A stretch of 43,304 nt of DNA from Planctomycetota bacterium (lineage in GTDB: Bacteria > Planctomycetota > Phycisphaerae > Phycisphaerales > UBA1924), in assembly GCA_024276195.1 (NCBI GenBank), contig JAJRXR010000015.1, positions 1 through 43,304 of the forward strand, written 5' to 3'. The position numbers were made by a program, and so were the translations under genes. Under the pieces are notes generated by a model, which was not told the DNA's origin, made no database searches, and was given only the letters and a program-made list of their open reading frames with translations. This document shows positions 9,099-38,817 of the stretch, piece by piece; position 1 is the stretch's first letter; every line of letters begins with the position of its first letter.

Positions 9099-9992
9099 AT
9101 GCGAGCTGTTCTCTTGATCAATCCACGCTCGGGGCGAGGGCGTGCGCCCCGAAACGGACATTCGATCGCCTGCGCCCTCAAGGATCGCGGGCACGAGGCG
9201 CAGATATTTACATTCGGACAAGCCTCACCCCTGGACGCGACCGATCTGGGCGGCGCCGACGCGCTCATCGTCGTCGGGGGCGATGGCTCGGTCCACCACG
9301 CCTCCCGGGCAGCGATCGAGGCGGGCGTGCCCGTCTACCACGCGCCCAGCGGCAACGAAAACCTCTTCGCCCGCGAGTTCTCGATGCGCCCCGATCCCAA
9401 GAGCGTCCTCAATGCGCTCGAGCACGGGCCGACCGAGCGTGTCGATCTGGCTCGCTGCAACGGGTTGAGCTTCCTGCTGATGTGCTCGGTCGGCCCGGAC
9501 GCGAGCGTGATTCGCCGCCTCAACCGCGCCCGCCGCCGCCCGACCGGGCACATGGCCTACATGCGCCCGGTCCTGGGCGAGACGCTGCGCCCGTACACGC
9601 CGCGCATGCGCGTGCTGGTCGATGGGCGCCCATTGGTCGATTCCCGGCGCGGCATGGTCATCATCGCCAACTGCCGCCAGTACGCGCTGCGCGCCGACCC
9701 CTGCCCGCACGCGAGCATGACCGACACCCTGCTGGACGTGGTTTTTCTGCCCTGCGCGACAGCGGTGGGGGCGCTGCGAAGGCTGGTTCAGTGCCGCATG
9801 CGCCGCCAGGAGCGATCACGCGCGATTCTCACTGCCCGAGGCTCAACCGTTCGCGTCGAGATCGAAGGGTCCGACCCGATCTGCCAGATGGACGGCGAGG
9901 CGCCCACCCCCGGCTCCGCGCCCGACAGCGCCCGGGTGCTCGAGTGCACCGTCGAGGCGGGAGTCTTGCCGGTGCTCCTCCCGCCGGGCTAG
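9099..9992 (+). CDS. Diacylglycerol kinase-like (YegS/BmrU/DgkB-type) protein
   Basis: 297 residues from the ATG at 9099. The N-terminal catalytic fold is clear: LLINPRSGRG at the start, then the nucleotide loop VVGGDGSVHHA (residues about 58-68) and a PSGNENLFAREF segment in place of the usual P-x-GTGNDFAR. The C-terminal half has the expected beta-sandwich. Family members phosphorylate diacylglycerol, sphingoid bases or related lipids; some have unknown substrates. The GNE rather than GTGND signature is a departure that may mean a different substrate. Its TAG stop overlaps the hutI stop in a shared CTAG at 9989-9992. Confidence 0.8.
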   Translation: MRAVLLINPRSGRGRAPRNGHSIACALKDRGHEAQIFTFGQASPLDATDLGGADALIVVGGDGSVHHASRAAIEAGVPVYHAPSGNENLFAREFSMRPDPKSVLNALEHGPTERVDLARCNGLSFLLMCSVGPDASVIRRLNRARRRPTGHMAYMRPVLGETLRPYTPRMRVLVDGRPLVDSRRGMVIIANCRQYALRADPCPHASMTDTLLDVVFLPCATAVGALRRLVQCRMRRQERSRAILTARGSTVRVEIEGSDPICQMDGEAPTPGSAPDSARVLECTVEAGVLPVLLPPG

Positions 9993-18785: not shown

Positions 18786-19514
18786 CTAGGCGGTGGTGTC
18801 GTTGGCTGGGTGCAATGGCCCGCGAAGTTCTCGAAGCTGGTTTGTCTCCGGATCGCCGATGGCTGCAATGCAATCTTCTAACGCTTTGCGGACATCAATC
18901 TTCTCTGCTGGCGTCATCGCCCTTTCACCAAGGCTGCTTGCTTTGTGAATGTACTCATTGTGGATGTGGACGCATAGTTCGTGTCCGACAAGGTCTCTTG
19001 CACTGGCAATCCCCTCGATCCAGGTTGGAAGCCAATCCTCTGCCGTGTCTTGAGGAGTGAACTCGTGACACCGAGTGTACTCATAAACAATGCTCACCAA
19101 ATTCCTGCGATACGCACTCGGCTCACGAAACCGAATGCGATTATGCGCAATCGCAATGTCCTCTCTGCGCTTTGACCATCGTGTTTGGTAGTCGCCTGAT
19201 GTGTGGCCATTGCTTCGGTACTCAATGTGACACTCATTGGCGTAGTCAAACAGACTCCGGAGTTGGTCAAGAAGCTTGTCGTAGTCGCGAGCTAGCGTCA
19301 AGAGCAGATCGCACTCCCGAGCTCTCCGATCGCGCTTGGCCGCAAAGCGATGGAACAGCACAGCTCCTACCGATGCCCCTACAAGAGCCGCAAGAAATGG
19401 GACTGCAATCGCCGAGAATATCAGCGGAGCGGAGACGACTGGTTGCTGTTGAAGCAGTTCTTGGAGCGCTATGGAAAGTGGTTCGGATTGATCAGCAGGA
19501 GCTAACCCAGTCAC
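18786..19514 (-). CDS. Low-GC membrane-anchored protein of unknown function, coupled to proS
   Basis: 242 residues from a GTG at 19514. This start is chosen because it has GGAG 8 nt upstream and overlaps the proS stop as GTGA, a classic coupling arrangement; an ATG six codons earlier is possible. Residues about 25-56 form a transmembrane helix (IFSAIAVPFLAALVGASVGAVL); the rest is a charged, mostly helical soluble domain with His and Cys residues (ANECHIEYRS, YEYTRCHEF, GHELCVHIHNEYIH). I recognise no family. Base composition is clearly lower in G+C than both neighbours and codon use differs, suggesting recent acquisition despite the tight coupling. Confidence 0.7.
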   Translation of the reverse strand: MTGLAPADQSEPLSIALQELLQQQPVVSAPLIFSAIAVPFLAALVGASVGAVLFHRFAAKRDRRARECDLLLTLARDYDKLLDQLRSLFDYANECHIEYRSNGHTSGDYQTRWSKRREDIAIAHNRIRFREPSAYRRNLVSIVYEYTRCHEFTPQDTAEDWLPTWIEGIASARDLVGHELCVHIHNEYIHKASSLGERAMTPAEKIDVRKALEDCIAAIGDPETNQLRELRGPLHPANDTTA

Positions 19515-21409
19515 GCTAAGTTCTCCAGGCATGCCATTGCAGCTTCGCGTACCGCCACCAACTCCCCCTTCCCCTCACTCCCTCGCACCTTGAACTCCAC
19601 CGAGTCCTGATCCAGCGCCTTGTCCCCCAGCGTCAGCCGGATCGGGATCCCAATCAAATCCGCGTCCTTGAACTTCACGCCCGGGCGTTCGCTTCGGTCG
19701 TCGATGAGCACGTCCACTCCCCGCTCGCTCAGCTCGTCCGCAAGCTGCTGCGCGACCCTCGCCTGTCGCTCATCGTCCGCCTTCATGACCGTAATCAGCA
19801 CATGGTACGGCGCCAGCGCCGCGGGCCAGATGATCCCGTCGTCGTCGTGGCTCATCTCGACGCACGCCGCGAGCGTCCGCGACACGCCGATGCCGTAGCA
19901 CCCCATGATCACGCTCTGGCGTTGCTGGTTCTCGTCCATGATGGCGAAGCCCATCGCGTCGGAATACTTGCTGCCGAGCTTGAAGATGTGCCCGACCTCG
20001 ATCCCCCGCTTGGCTTGCAACGGCTCGCCCTTGCCCCGCGGCGACGGGTCGCCCTCGATCGCGTTGCGGATGCTGTGGACCGCGAAGAAGCAGTCGTCGG
20101 CGCCCATCGCCAGGGCGGGGTCTTTGCCGAGATCGCGCGCCCAGTTGAAGTGCTTGACGTGATGGTCTTTCTCGTCAGCGCCCGTCGCCCAGAACCTGGG
20201 CTTGTCCTTGCCCTCGTCCCACCCGACCGCAGCGTCGGGGTCGATCACGAGCAGCGTCTGGGGCTTGCCCACCGCCGCGCGGGGCGAGACAAACCCGATC
20301 TCAAAGCCCGCCCTCTTCGCCTGCTCCGGGTCGGCCAGCTCGAGCTTGCACTCGGCGAAGTCGCGCACCTTCCCCTCGTTGACGTCGTGATCGCCGCGAA
20401 CAACCGCGACCACCCACCAGTCGCCCGGGTACCCCTCCGCCTCCTCCGGGGTGCTCGCGACGACCTTGAACACCACCGTCTTGAGCATGTCGCGGGCCTT
20501 GACCTTCATCAGCTTGCACACCTCGACGATCCCCGGGCACCCCGGCGTGTGGATCTTGTCCAGCTCGCCCGTGGGCTCGCCCGCGAAGAAACCCCGCGCC
20601 GGCGCAGTCCGCTCCCCGATCTCGCACTTCTCCACGTTCGCGGCGTACCCCGTCTCCGGGCACACCAGAATCGTGTCCTCGCCCGACTCGCAGTTGACCA
20701 TGAACTCGTGCGACGCCGACCCGCCGATCGGCCCCGCCTCCGCCTCGACCGCGCTGAAGTCCAACCCGCAGCGCGAGAAGATGTTCGTGTACGCCCGGTA
20801 CATCGCGTCGTACCCGGCGTTGAGACCCGCCTCCCCGTCCAGGCTCAGGTGGAACGAGTACGCGTCCTTCATGATGAACTCGCGCCCGCGCAGCAGCCCC
20901 GCTCGCGGACGAAACTCGTCGCGGTATTTGGTTTGGATCTGGTACAGGTTCAGCGGGAGCTGCTTGTAGCTCGTGATCGAGCCCCGCGCCATCTCCGTGA
21001 TGACCTCCTCGTGCGTGGGCGCGAGATAGCTGTCACGCCCGTGCCGGTCCTCGAAGCGCATCAGCAGGTCGCCGTAGTCCTCGGCCCGCCCTGTCTCTTT
21101 GAGTAGTTCCGTGGGGCACAGCGCTGGCAGCAGCAGCTCCGACCCCCCCGCCGCGTTCATCTCTTCGCGAACGATCTGGCTGATCTTCCGCAGCACCCGC
21201 CATCCCAGGGGCAGATAGTCGTACACCCCCGCCGTCACGCGCCGGATAAACCCGCCCCGGACGAGCAGGCGATGGCTGGGCAGCTCCGCGTCGCTGGGCG
21301 CCTCGCGCGCCGTGGGGATCAGGGTCTGCGACCAGCGCTGGATATCGCCGCGCCGGACGTTCGAGATCGGGCTCTGCTGGTGGGATCGCTGGGAGCGTTG
21401 TTGGGTCAT
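19511..21409 (-). CDS. proS: Prolyl-tRNA synthetase, bacterial type with editing domain
   Basis: 632 residues from the ATG at 21409. Charges tRNA-Pro. Class II catalytic core: motif 2 region RDEFRPRAGLLRGREFIMKD and late motif 3 region GCYGIGVSRTLAA. Between them is the INS editing insertion (residues about 230-400), and the C-terminal anticodon-binding domain starts near LAPYHVLITVMKAD. The start is preceded by TAGACT 8 nt upstream with no ribosome binding site. Upstream lies a composite palindromic element that overlaps the expected -35 region. Its TGA stop overlaps the GTG of the following gene. Confidence 0.95.
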   Translation of the reverse strand: MTQQRSQRSHQQSPISNVRRGDIQRWSQTLIPTAREAPSDAELPSHRLLVRGGFIRRVTAGVYDYLPLGWRVLRKISQIVREEMNAAGGSELLLPALCPTELLKETGRAEDYGDLLMRFEDRHGRDSYLAPTHEEVITEMARGSITSYKQLPLNLYQIQTKYRDEFRPRAGLLRGREFIMKDAYSFHLSLDGEAGLNAGYDAMYRAYTNIFSRCGLDFSAVEAEAGPIGGSASHEFMVNCESGEDTILVCPETGYAANVEKCEIGERTAPARGFFAGEPTGELDKIHTPGCPGIVEVCKLMKVKARDMLKTVVFKVVASTPEEAEGYPGDWWVVAVVRGDHDVNEGKVRDFAECKLELADPEQAKRAGFEIGFVSPRAAVGKPQTLLVIDPDAAVGWDEGKDKPRFWATGADEKDHHVKHFNWARDLGKDPALAMGADDCFFAVHSIRNAIEGDPSPRGKGEPLQAKRGIEVGHIFKLGSKYSDAMGFAIMDENQQRQSVIMGCYGIGVSRTLAACVEMSHDDDGIIWPAALAPYHVLITVMKADDERQARVAQQLADELSERGVDVLIDDRSERPGVKFKDADLIGIPIRLTLGDKALDQDSVEFKVRGSEGKGELVAVREAAMACLENLA

Positions 21410-21417
21410 TGGAGCGG

Positions 21418-21423
21418 AGTCTA
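21418..21423 (-). promoter_or_regulatory. -10 box of proS, leaderless-type
   Basis: TAGACT on the minus strand, 8 nt before the proS ATG. A -35 at 17-bp spacing would fall at 21441-21446, inside the right-hand palindrome of the composite repeat. Confidence 0.45.
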
Positions 21424-21482
21424 GGGGGATCGACTTCGTGCCACTGGCCCGTCTTCGGGTCAGTGCTGTGGCGATGGGTGGC

Positions 21483-21508
21483 GTGCAGACGGCGCCAGCC
21501 TTCTGCAC
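21483..21508. repeat. Inner hairpin 1 of the composite element
   Basis: GTGCAGA / TCTGCAC, 7-bp stem with a short inner GGC/GCC helix. It is homologous in inverted orientation to hairpin 2 (21524-21550), but the fourth stem position is C-G here and G-C there. Confidence 0.8.
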
Positions 21509-21523
21509 GGTCGGCGCCTGCTC

Positions 21524-21550
21524 GTGGAGAAGCCGCGGCGGCGTCTCCAC
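21524..21550. repeat. Inner hairpin 2 of the composite element
   Basis: GTGGAGA / TCTCCAC, 7-bp stem with inner GCCG/CGGC helix (read on the minus strand). It is the inverted relative of hairpin 1, with both sides of the variable base pair changed together. Confidence 0.8.
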
Positions 21551-21622
21551 GCCACCCAATGAGTAAAGCTGCACTGACCCGAAGACGGGCCAGTGGCACG
21601 AAACTTCGGGAATCAAGAATCG

Positions 21623-22312
21623 CTACAGCGCCGCCTCGGCCGCACGCTCTCGCTCGGGCGAGACGGTCGCCCCGCCGAGCAGCGCCAGCCATCGGTTCCG
21701 CTCCGTCGCCGCCCCCGGCGCCTGCCCCAGCGCCCCGGACCACCAGCACGCCTCGACCGGCAGCTCCATGTCCAGCGCCAGGTCCGCGATCTGGTCGTCC
21801 TCAAGATCCACGAACGGCGTCTCGATCGTGATCTCAATCCCGCCCAGCTCGTCGTCGTCGAGCGAGATCAGCCGCCCGACGAGCAGCGCCCGGTCGATCG
21901 ACCGCGAGATCCGGTCCAGGTCCGCCGCCTCGCCCTCGGGCAGCTTGCAGTGCACGGGCCAGACGACGCGCGTACACCGCCTCGCCGCCGCCAGATAGCA
22001 CGCCCGCAGCAGCGTCAGCGTGTCCACCTCGCCCCGCAGCCCCAGCGTCGCCCCGAGCACCCCCCCCGCTCTTTCGTCCCCGGGCGGGACATACTCGAGC
22101 GAGAATATCTCGGCGTGGCGCGAGGCCGCGTGCGCACAGATCGGGTCCAGCCCGAGCGCCGTTGAAACCGGCCACACCAGGCTCGTGTCAGACCCCTGCA
22201 AGCCCGCGTCCTGCGGGCGCATGGCGTCCTCTTCGCTCGCAATCGCGCTCGCGAGCAGGCTCGTGAGCCCGCCGTCGCTGACAATCAGGGATCGGTCCTT
22301 CTTGCTGCCCAT
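21623..22312 (-). CDS. QueC-like (N-type ATP pyrophosphatase fold) protein, diverged
   Basis: 229 residues. The N-terminus LIVSDGGLTSLLAS resembles the SGGxDS ATP loop of 7-cyano-7-deazaguanine synthase (QueC) but reads SDGGLTS. Later EIFSLEYVPPG sits where QueC has its second strand, and IETPFVDLEDDQIADLALDM then PVEACWW match the QueC pattern of an ETP-(L/F)-(I/V)DL-x5-I-x2-LA helix and LxxTWSCY, but with WWSG instead of WSCY. The Cys cluster for zinc is absent. So a QueC relative with altered ATP loop and no zinc site; enzymatic activity is doubtful. The ATG is preceded by TACACT 8 nt upstream (leaderless type). Divergent from the sirtuin gene. Confidence 0.5.
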   Translation of the reverse strand: MGSKKDRSLIVSDGGLTSLLASAIASEEDAMRPQDAGLQGSDTSLVWPVSTALGLDPICAHAASRHAEIFSLEYVPPGDERAGGVLGATLGLRGEVDTLTLLRACYLAAARRCTRVVWPVHCKLPEGEAADLDRISRSIDRALLVGRLISLDDDELGGIEITIETPFVDLEDDQIADLALDMELPVEACWWSGALGQAPGAATERNRWLALLGGATVSPERERAAEAAL

Positions 22313-38671: not shown

Positions 38672-38679
38672 TTCTCTTC

Positions 38680-38704
38680 GGAGGGGTGGGCTTCCAGCCC
38701 TCCC
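38680..38704. repeat. REP-like palindrome, copy 2 (inverted)
   Basis: GGAGGGGTGGGCT TCC AGCCC then TCCC. Its first 21 nt are the exact reverse complement of the last 21 nt of copy 4 at 38785-38809. One base change weakens the outer stem. Confidence 0.75.
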
Positions 38705-38714
38705 ACACTCTTCT

Positions 38715-38739
38715 GGAGGGGGTGGCTTCCAGCCACCCC
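38715..38739. repeat. REP-like palindrome, copy 3
   Basis: GGAG followed by GGGGTGGCT TCC AGCCACCCC: perfect 9-bp stem, same orientation as copy 2, with the inner GGG-CCC shortened on both sides and the outer stem lengthened, so pairing is kept. Confidence 0.75.
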
Positions 38740-38784
38740 GCATTCACGCCTGCGCGGCAGGGCGAATACTGGCGCCTCAAGAAC

Positions 38785-38809
38785 GGGTGGGCTGGAAGCC
38801 CACCCCTCC
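38785..38809. repeat. REP-like palindrome, copy 4
   Basis: GGGTGGGCT GGA AGCCCACCC followed by CTCC, identical over 25 nt to the copy at 24816-24840 and inverted relative to copies 2 and 3. The three copies fill the 146 bp between the convergent phoU and gcvT genes. Confidence 0.8.
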
Positions 38810-38817
38810 AAAGACAG

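Follow-up and report, generated by a model that had tools for sequence, protein, structure and literature searches.

A 168-bp element beside proS in a Phycisphaerales genome is probably a nested mosaic of two REP families

The 168-bp element that separates proS from its upstream open reading frame (ORF) in the 43,304-nt stretch of DNA analyzed here (the window) is most likely a hybrid REP mosaic of the BIME/REPIN kind, in which an inverted pair of hairpins of one family (B) is nested within a REPIN of another family (A). We place the probability of this interpretation at about 0.85. In the passages of PMC8266576 and PMC6006769 that define them, REPs are palindromes of 20–50 nt that follow a conserved foot, which in the majority of families reads GTAG or GT[AG]G, and are present in many copies. 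The hairpins described below stand behind a GTGCC or GTGGC foot, with GTGC/GTGG instead of GTAG, and have dispersed copies. The initial annotation had suggested a non-autonomous, BIME-like mobile repeat, and this is supported by the relatives of the element in its genome (71 matches; 26 A arms versus 0 for a control), by a REP-associated tyrosine transposase (RAYT) and by the pairing kept between copies.

Anatomy of the element and its two hairpin families

Inspection of the sequence and an inverted-repeat search delimited an element of 168 bp with perfect 32-bp arms around two inner hairpins (Table 1). The arms are 100% complementary over their 32 nt, lie 104 nt apart and are each a hairpin by themselves. 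The repeat search thus confirmed the arrangement that had been described earlier, of perfect inverted arms, each a hairpin, around two inner hairpins related to one another by inversion. A pattern for the A arm, allowing up to 3 mismatches, matched the window at two places, which were the two arms with 0 mismatches each, and gave 0 matches in 100 dinucleotide shuffles. Folded as single-stranded DNA, the 168 nt reached -82.6 kcal/mol versus a mean of -36.5 for 200 shuffles (z -14.2, no shuffle as low); the minimum-energy form is a single long stem that encloses the stacked inner pair.

Table 1. Features of the element and of the genes on either side (window coordinates).
Feature	Position	Strand	Remarks
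Upstream ORF, 229 aa	21623..22312	-	Stop codon 20 nt from element
Whole element	21435..21602		168 bp
Left 32-bp arm	21435..21466	+	Contains REP A at 21438-21465: GTGCC foot and CACTGGCCCG-TCTT-CGGGTCAGTG hairpin
Inner REP B1	21476..21509	+	Foot GGGTGGC, hairpin GTGCAGA...TCTGCAC, head outward; the same unit adjoins a RAYT gene
B1-B2 spacer, gtcggcgcctgct	21510..21522	.	Shares homology with the 13-nt spacer in other triplets, whose consensus is gttggcgctcgat (by eye)
Inner REP B2, inverted	21523..21557	-	Hairpin GTGGAGA...TCTCCAC, head outward
Right 32-bp arm	21571..21602	-	Contains the inverted second REP A (21572-21599), same sequence as left REP A
Inner pair I2	21475-21496/21537-21558		91% complementary
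Inner pair I3	21523-21536/21538-21551		93% complementary
Inner pair I4	21482-21493/21498-21509		92% complementary
proS, proline--tRNA ligase	19511..21409	-	NF006625 above cut-off; ATG 21409..21407, 25 nt to element

When a 178-bp stretch was used as the query, 71 matches were found in the window's assembly (G000), palindromes being counted on both strands. These matches fall into two distinct REP families. Family A consists of a GTGCC foot and a CACTGACCCG-TCTT-CGGGTCAGTG hairpin, and 26 arms were found in the genome at up to 3 mismatches versus 0 for a reversed control pattern; in family B the foot is GGGTGCC or GGGTGGC and the hairpin CGTGNAGACG...CTTCTNCACG, with 42 units versus 0 for its control. 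In the element, where A is outer and B inner and the two inner units, B1 and B2, are subtypes of B, each family is present as an inverted, head-outward pair, and each was also found alone. The common form of A is a plain pair, mostly with a spacer of 18–28 nt, and both these pairs and the B1-B2' pairs (the prime marking the inverted member) have the REPIN/BIME composition of two inverted REPs with a short spacer. The foot of B2 is GGGTGGC in the window element and GGGTGCC in most other B2 units. An integron attC array had been entertained for the C39 matches, which follow one another along a single strand, and was rejected on anatomy, the units there being REP pairs with feet and hairpins.

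The search of the genome for the 32-bp arm and the inner units, which the initial annotation had proposed, therefore returned relatives both in this genome and in related species, and the outcome it had named as contrary to its reading (a single copy with no relatives and no covariation) was not what we observed. When named genomes were scanned for A, we obtained at least 110 stretches whose titles, among the matches listed, were those of Phycisphaerales or Planctomycetota MAGs, and among these matches A REPs recurred in many Phycisphaerales records.

Within the window alone, GTGCAGA/TCTGCAC and GTGGAGA/TCTCCAC are a mere difference between two units, and it is the family data that make the swap covariation. 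Six genomes supplied 74 B units, in which the swapped pair was G-C 50 times, C-G 24 times and mismatched 0 times (74/74 paired versus 41.6 expected), and most inner helices of these units were paired as well. A search for A in which stem positions 13 and 20 were left free identified 151 distinct places, with C-G at 64, T-A at 54, G-C at 18, A-T at 2, T-G at 6 and other combinations at 7; 138 of the 151 are Watson-Crick and 6 are wobble pairs, versus 57 expected from column make-up. In both families the covarying copies share ancestry, so the cells are not independent events. The stem swap reported earlier is thus real, and the accompanying claim that pairing was preserved through two-sided base changes was borne out in both families (138/151 in A, 74/74 in B). 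Together, these comparisons of copies show that pairing is kept, as would be expected if the transposase reads a folded strand, which is the mechanism given for REPs in the passages seen of PMC8266576.

The A-B1-B2' triplet and the order of assembly

A homologous triplet, A-B1-B2', occurs at 14 loci of the window's genome (L001-L011, L013, L015 and L016; L012 and L022 are repeats of others). The layout is constant at these loci and at L052 of the related genome G038: A, a spacer of ~9 nt, B1, a spacer of ~13 nt and the inverted B2. A lies on the B1 side in 14/14 triplets, loci that are dependent if the triplet is one lineage. Five of the 14 end in a second inverted A (A-B1-B2'-A'), namely the window (C84), C65, C34, C58 and C78; at L013 the triplet is followed by a truncated A pair, and at L016 B2 has decayed.

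The mean pairwise identity, for spacers typed by hand, was 0.55 for the A-B1 spacer (13 loci) and 0.70 for the B1-B2 spacer (10 loci), compared to 0.33 and 0.28 for the flanks of the triplets and 0.33 for the first 10 nt of B pairs without A (n=6). In our reading of these sequences the triplet has spread as a unit, since its spacers are more alike between loci than its flanks. An A variant, GTGCTGCTG, is found on the B1 side of 4/14 triplets (L003, L006, L011 and L015). A further repeat, about TTCACCGCAGAGGGCCGCGGAGAGCCGCAGAG by eye, is present in the left flanks of three triplets, L010 and L016 in G000 and L052 in G038.

Parts of the element were identified in 11 of 61 genomes of the family, counts that are lower bounds based on 13 candidates scored per genome. 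Some genomes have A-type matches alone (e.g., G001, with at least 26), G017 and G021 have the B type alone, and the window's genome, G038 and G052 have both. Among the matches listed, G038:C69 was the only triplet outside the window's genome. Other palindromes were seen in the company of A pairs elsewhere: in NORP138 they interrupt or adjoin A pairs at L163:4441-4612 (feet GGGTGCC) and L214:2893-3103 (GAGCCCCTCGC type), and in 3_bin.101 a REPIN with GGGTGCC feet lies beside an A pair (L127:2207-2433).

At the proS gap, the sister species G038 has an A, 20 nt and an inverted A, with no B, and a third species, G062, has neither family. We queried 11 of the 14 triplet loci and obtained an ortholog in G038 for 10 (not L010). 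The five full loci correspond in the sister to an A pair without B in three cases (window, C58 and C78) and to a site with no A or B in two (C65 and C34), and all five one-sided triplets (C60, C42, C55, C46 and C15) correspond to sites with neither, save for chance-level short B-like words in two intervals. A resident A pair was thus present at 3/5 full versus 0/5 one-sided loci (Fisher one-sided 0.08, by hand). In G062, where seven loci had both flanks, A or B was present at 0/7. The flank beside A aligns between G000 and G038 at C58 (41/64) and C78 (44/60); right beside A at the window locus it aligns poorly (42/76 and 45/75, with large gaps), good alignment beginning only about 25 nt away.

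The simplest account of these alignments is that an A-REPIN was already at three sites and that the B-bearing triplet would have been received there later. Loss of B in the sister is formally conceivable, and we prefer a gain, plain pairs being the usual state of A. It is also conceivable that A entered the one gap at proS on two separate occasions, given that the flank next to A aligns poorly there. Nesting in a resident A-REPIN would not be the sole route, since the sister lacks A at 2/5 full loci and lacks both A and B at 5/5 one-sided loci. The sequence of events that we propose is that a RAYT would cut and join hairpins as folded single strands, that a B pair would have joined an A unit once and that the resulting triplet would then have spread; at the proS gap the triplet would have entered, or recombined with, the resident A-REPIN to give the nested 168-bp element.

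The gap, the A pair and the A pair with B inside could also reflect many independent insertions of B-REPINs into the spacers of resident A-REPINs rather than the spread of one fused triplet, a possibility that we consider doubtful. It would suit the plain A pair of the sister at 3/5 full loci, the spacers of 16–32 nt that are left when B is removed from the five full loci by hand, near the 18–28 nt of plain A pairs, and the palindromes that interrupt A pairs at L163 and L214 or, as a REPIN, lie beside one at L127. However, independent insertions would leave unexplained that homology between loci extends to the A-B1 and B1-B2 spacers and that A variants such as that noted above recur on the B1 side in 4/14 triplets, as for a travelling triplet, and 5/5 one-sided triplets are at sites without A or B in the sister. 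The initial description of one element with 32-bp terminal inverted repeats, whose perfect arms were confirmed, is better taken to be two REP families, one within the other. A classical MITE, that is, one unit with such repeats moved by a DDE transposase, would agree with the perfect terminal arms and with two full copies (window and C65) that are 90% alike. Yet terminal inverted repeats are not present on all copies, as the right arm is missing as a simple partner in 9/14 triplets (the L013 triplet with its truncated A pair among them), both families occur alone too, and the feet and RAYT linkage match REPs, so that we judge a MITE to be very improbable.

A bolder version of the nested mosaic, to which we give rather little credence, is that REPs swap partners. 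The mobile unit would have three hairpins, running from A to B2 with GTGCC/GGCAC at its two tips, and a single RAYT, guided by the common foot more than by the stem, would move it in trans. Such units would enter resident REPINs of the other family; spacers would be landing sites and mosaics would grow stepwise. Stem position 6 is G in both window A arms (GGCCC), versus GACCC in most A copies, and at C58 two changes are common to both arms; the sister G038 has arms near consensus at these places. These matching private changes may reflect copying between arms or the arrival of an element already so armed; if partners are exchanged, they would suggest that one arm was copied onto the other via the folded strand.

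Genes beside the element

The window copy sits between two ORFs. A QueC-like gene had been reported on the upstream side, and we found no support for it, as the ORF there matched no Pfam and no NCBIfam family. The further proposals that the element covers the expected -35 of proS and could act as a transcription switch were likewise unsupported. A consensus scan of 21300-21750 found no sigma-70-like promoter, and the -35 could not be placed; no intrinsic terminator (a G+C-rich hairpin followed by a T run) was found on either strand of the same interval; and no Rfam family reached its gathering score, the one match being at chance level (17.1 bits versus 60). The flanking genes are in the same order in the third species, G062, which has no element.

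A regulatory RNA, or a terminator or attenuator of proS, might be suspected from the position of the element, in the short gap between the proS start and a same-strand ORF lying upstream, and from its strong folding. The negative terminator, promoter and Rfam searches led us to drop this explanation, and the dispersed copies adjoin unrelated genes and the orthologous gap of the third species is without the element, leaving it highly unlikely. The element is mobile and probably neutral DNA, and the analysis gave no evidence of a role in proS expression or of a new regulatory device for this gene.

Transposase genes and related systems

The window's genome has six Y1_Tnp matches. One is a RAYT gene of 170 aa at C43:7932-8444 (L032:1433-1945) with B REPs on both sides; it matches NF047646 at 99.5 bits (cut-off 80) and PF01797, and weakly resembles IS200-type and TnpA-REP chains of known structure. 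The check for a REP-associated tyrosine transposase that had been called for is therefore positive, and for B the genome holds a cognate RAYT flanked by its own REPs, as in REPIN/BIME systems. Flanking B REPs on both sides were also seen for a RAYT gene of G021 (L066) and for a broken RAYT gene of G017 (L086); in G038 (L080) and G052 (L064) they lie on a single side of such a gene. An early regex scan had missed B REPs that BLAST found. Relatives of the C43 RAYT at E <= 1e-20 were identified in 31/61 genomes of the family. The hairpins beside them often have a GTGCC-type foot and stems that differ, and several loci have no hairpin at the thresholds used.

For family A, no RAYT flanked by full-length copies was found by short-query BLAST around 32 Y1_Tnp loci drawn from this genome and from 10 relatives, where one weak 20-nt piece of A lay near L086, and none of the 110 A loci had an A-flanked RAYT ORF. 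A home-made RAYT profile, run over the ORFs of 80 of these loci (L115-L194), gave two matches, neither A-flanked, misses that mean little as several profile seeds were wrong-frame ORFs. ORFs between A clusters were seen in two cases among all 110 loci and looked, by eye, dihydropteroate synthase-like and PurM-like. In G051, a RAYT is flanked by A-like hairpins with the stem CACTGACC...GGTCAGTG, as in A (L263).

The element belongs to a kind that is already known, of which the travelling two-family triplet and a nesting order derived from comparison are the variant. Hybrid BIMEs of Stenotrophomonas hold REPs of two RAYTs, and modified REPs stay paired (Nunvar et al. 2010, PMC2817692, in the passages seen). 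The two-family composition and the pairing of altered REPs are the same here, whereas one REP pair lies inside the pair of the other family, the assembly order is read from a sister species, the spacers are homologous between loci where that source describes inter-REP segments without homology, and a RAYT was found for B and none for A in searches of this genome. As in the portions seen of Bertels and Rainey (2011, PMC3116915), the mobile unit of REPINs is an inverted REP doublet linked to a RAYT; the amplified unit here is instead a triplet of two families. With the E. coli BIMEs of y and z REPs and TnpA-REP, as far as described in passages of PMC8266576, the element shares a mosaic of REP types, a foot tetranucleotide and hairpins recognized single-stranded (here presumed by analogy), but the foot is GTGCC/GTGGC rather than GTAG and the two stems are unrelated, not two subtypes within a single family.

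REP dimers within longer palindromes are reported in part of PMC3733652 (A. variabilis GTAG-15, T. roseum GTAG-23 and H. neapolitanus CGTC-1), which also mentions REPs in Planctomycetes. The dimer inside another palindrome is common to both; here, by contrast, the enclosing palindrome is a dispersed REP pair that a relative has in uninterrupted form at these loci. The TnpA-Y1/REPtron classification (PMC6006769) similarly places tnpA-REP genes between copies of their own REP family and attributes REPs without their gene to gene loss, with Phycisphaerales unnamed in the passages seen. A search of one limited literature collection joining Phycisphaer- with repetitive extragenic palindromes found none. 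The series obtained by comparison, from empty gap to A pair to A pair with B inside, illustrates how BIME mosaics are built and sets up a natural experiment on whether foot or stem is read by a RAYT. The recurrence of A in many Phycisphaerales records among the matches listed, with its own transposase gene not found in our searches, bears on REP persistence.

RAYT domains were also observed within other genes. In G000:C39 (L033:1153-2361) one lies in frame within a 402-aa RdgB/HAM1 nucleotide-pyrophosphatase ORF (PF01725 and PF01797; NF047646 above cut-off) that is bordered by a third REP-like palindrome family, and a similar locus is present in G038 (L065). An inverted-repeat cluster of the GGGTGGGCTTCCAGCCCTCCC type in the window (38675-38814) resembles these bordering palindromes by eye; elsewhere in the window, a 24-nt inverted repeat (9415-9507) is 88% complementary with a 45 nt loop. 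Valyl-tRNA synthetase ORFs of G000:C7 (L029), G038:C9 (L076) and G017:C7 (L081) likewise contain an in-frame RAYT domain, with NF047646 above cut-off inside the valS matches; its position appears to be shared by all three genomes, which represent two genera.
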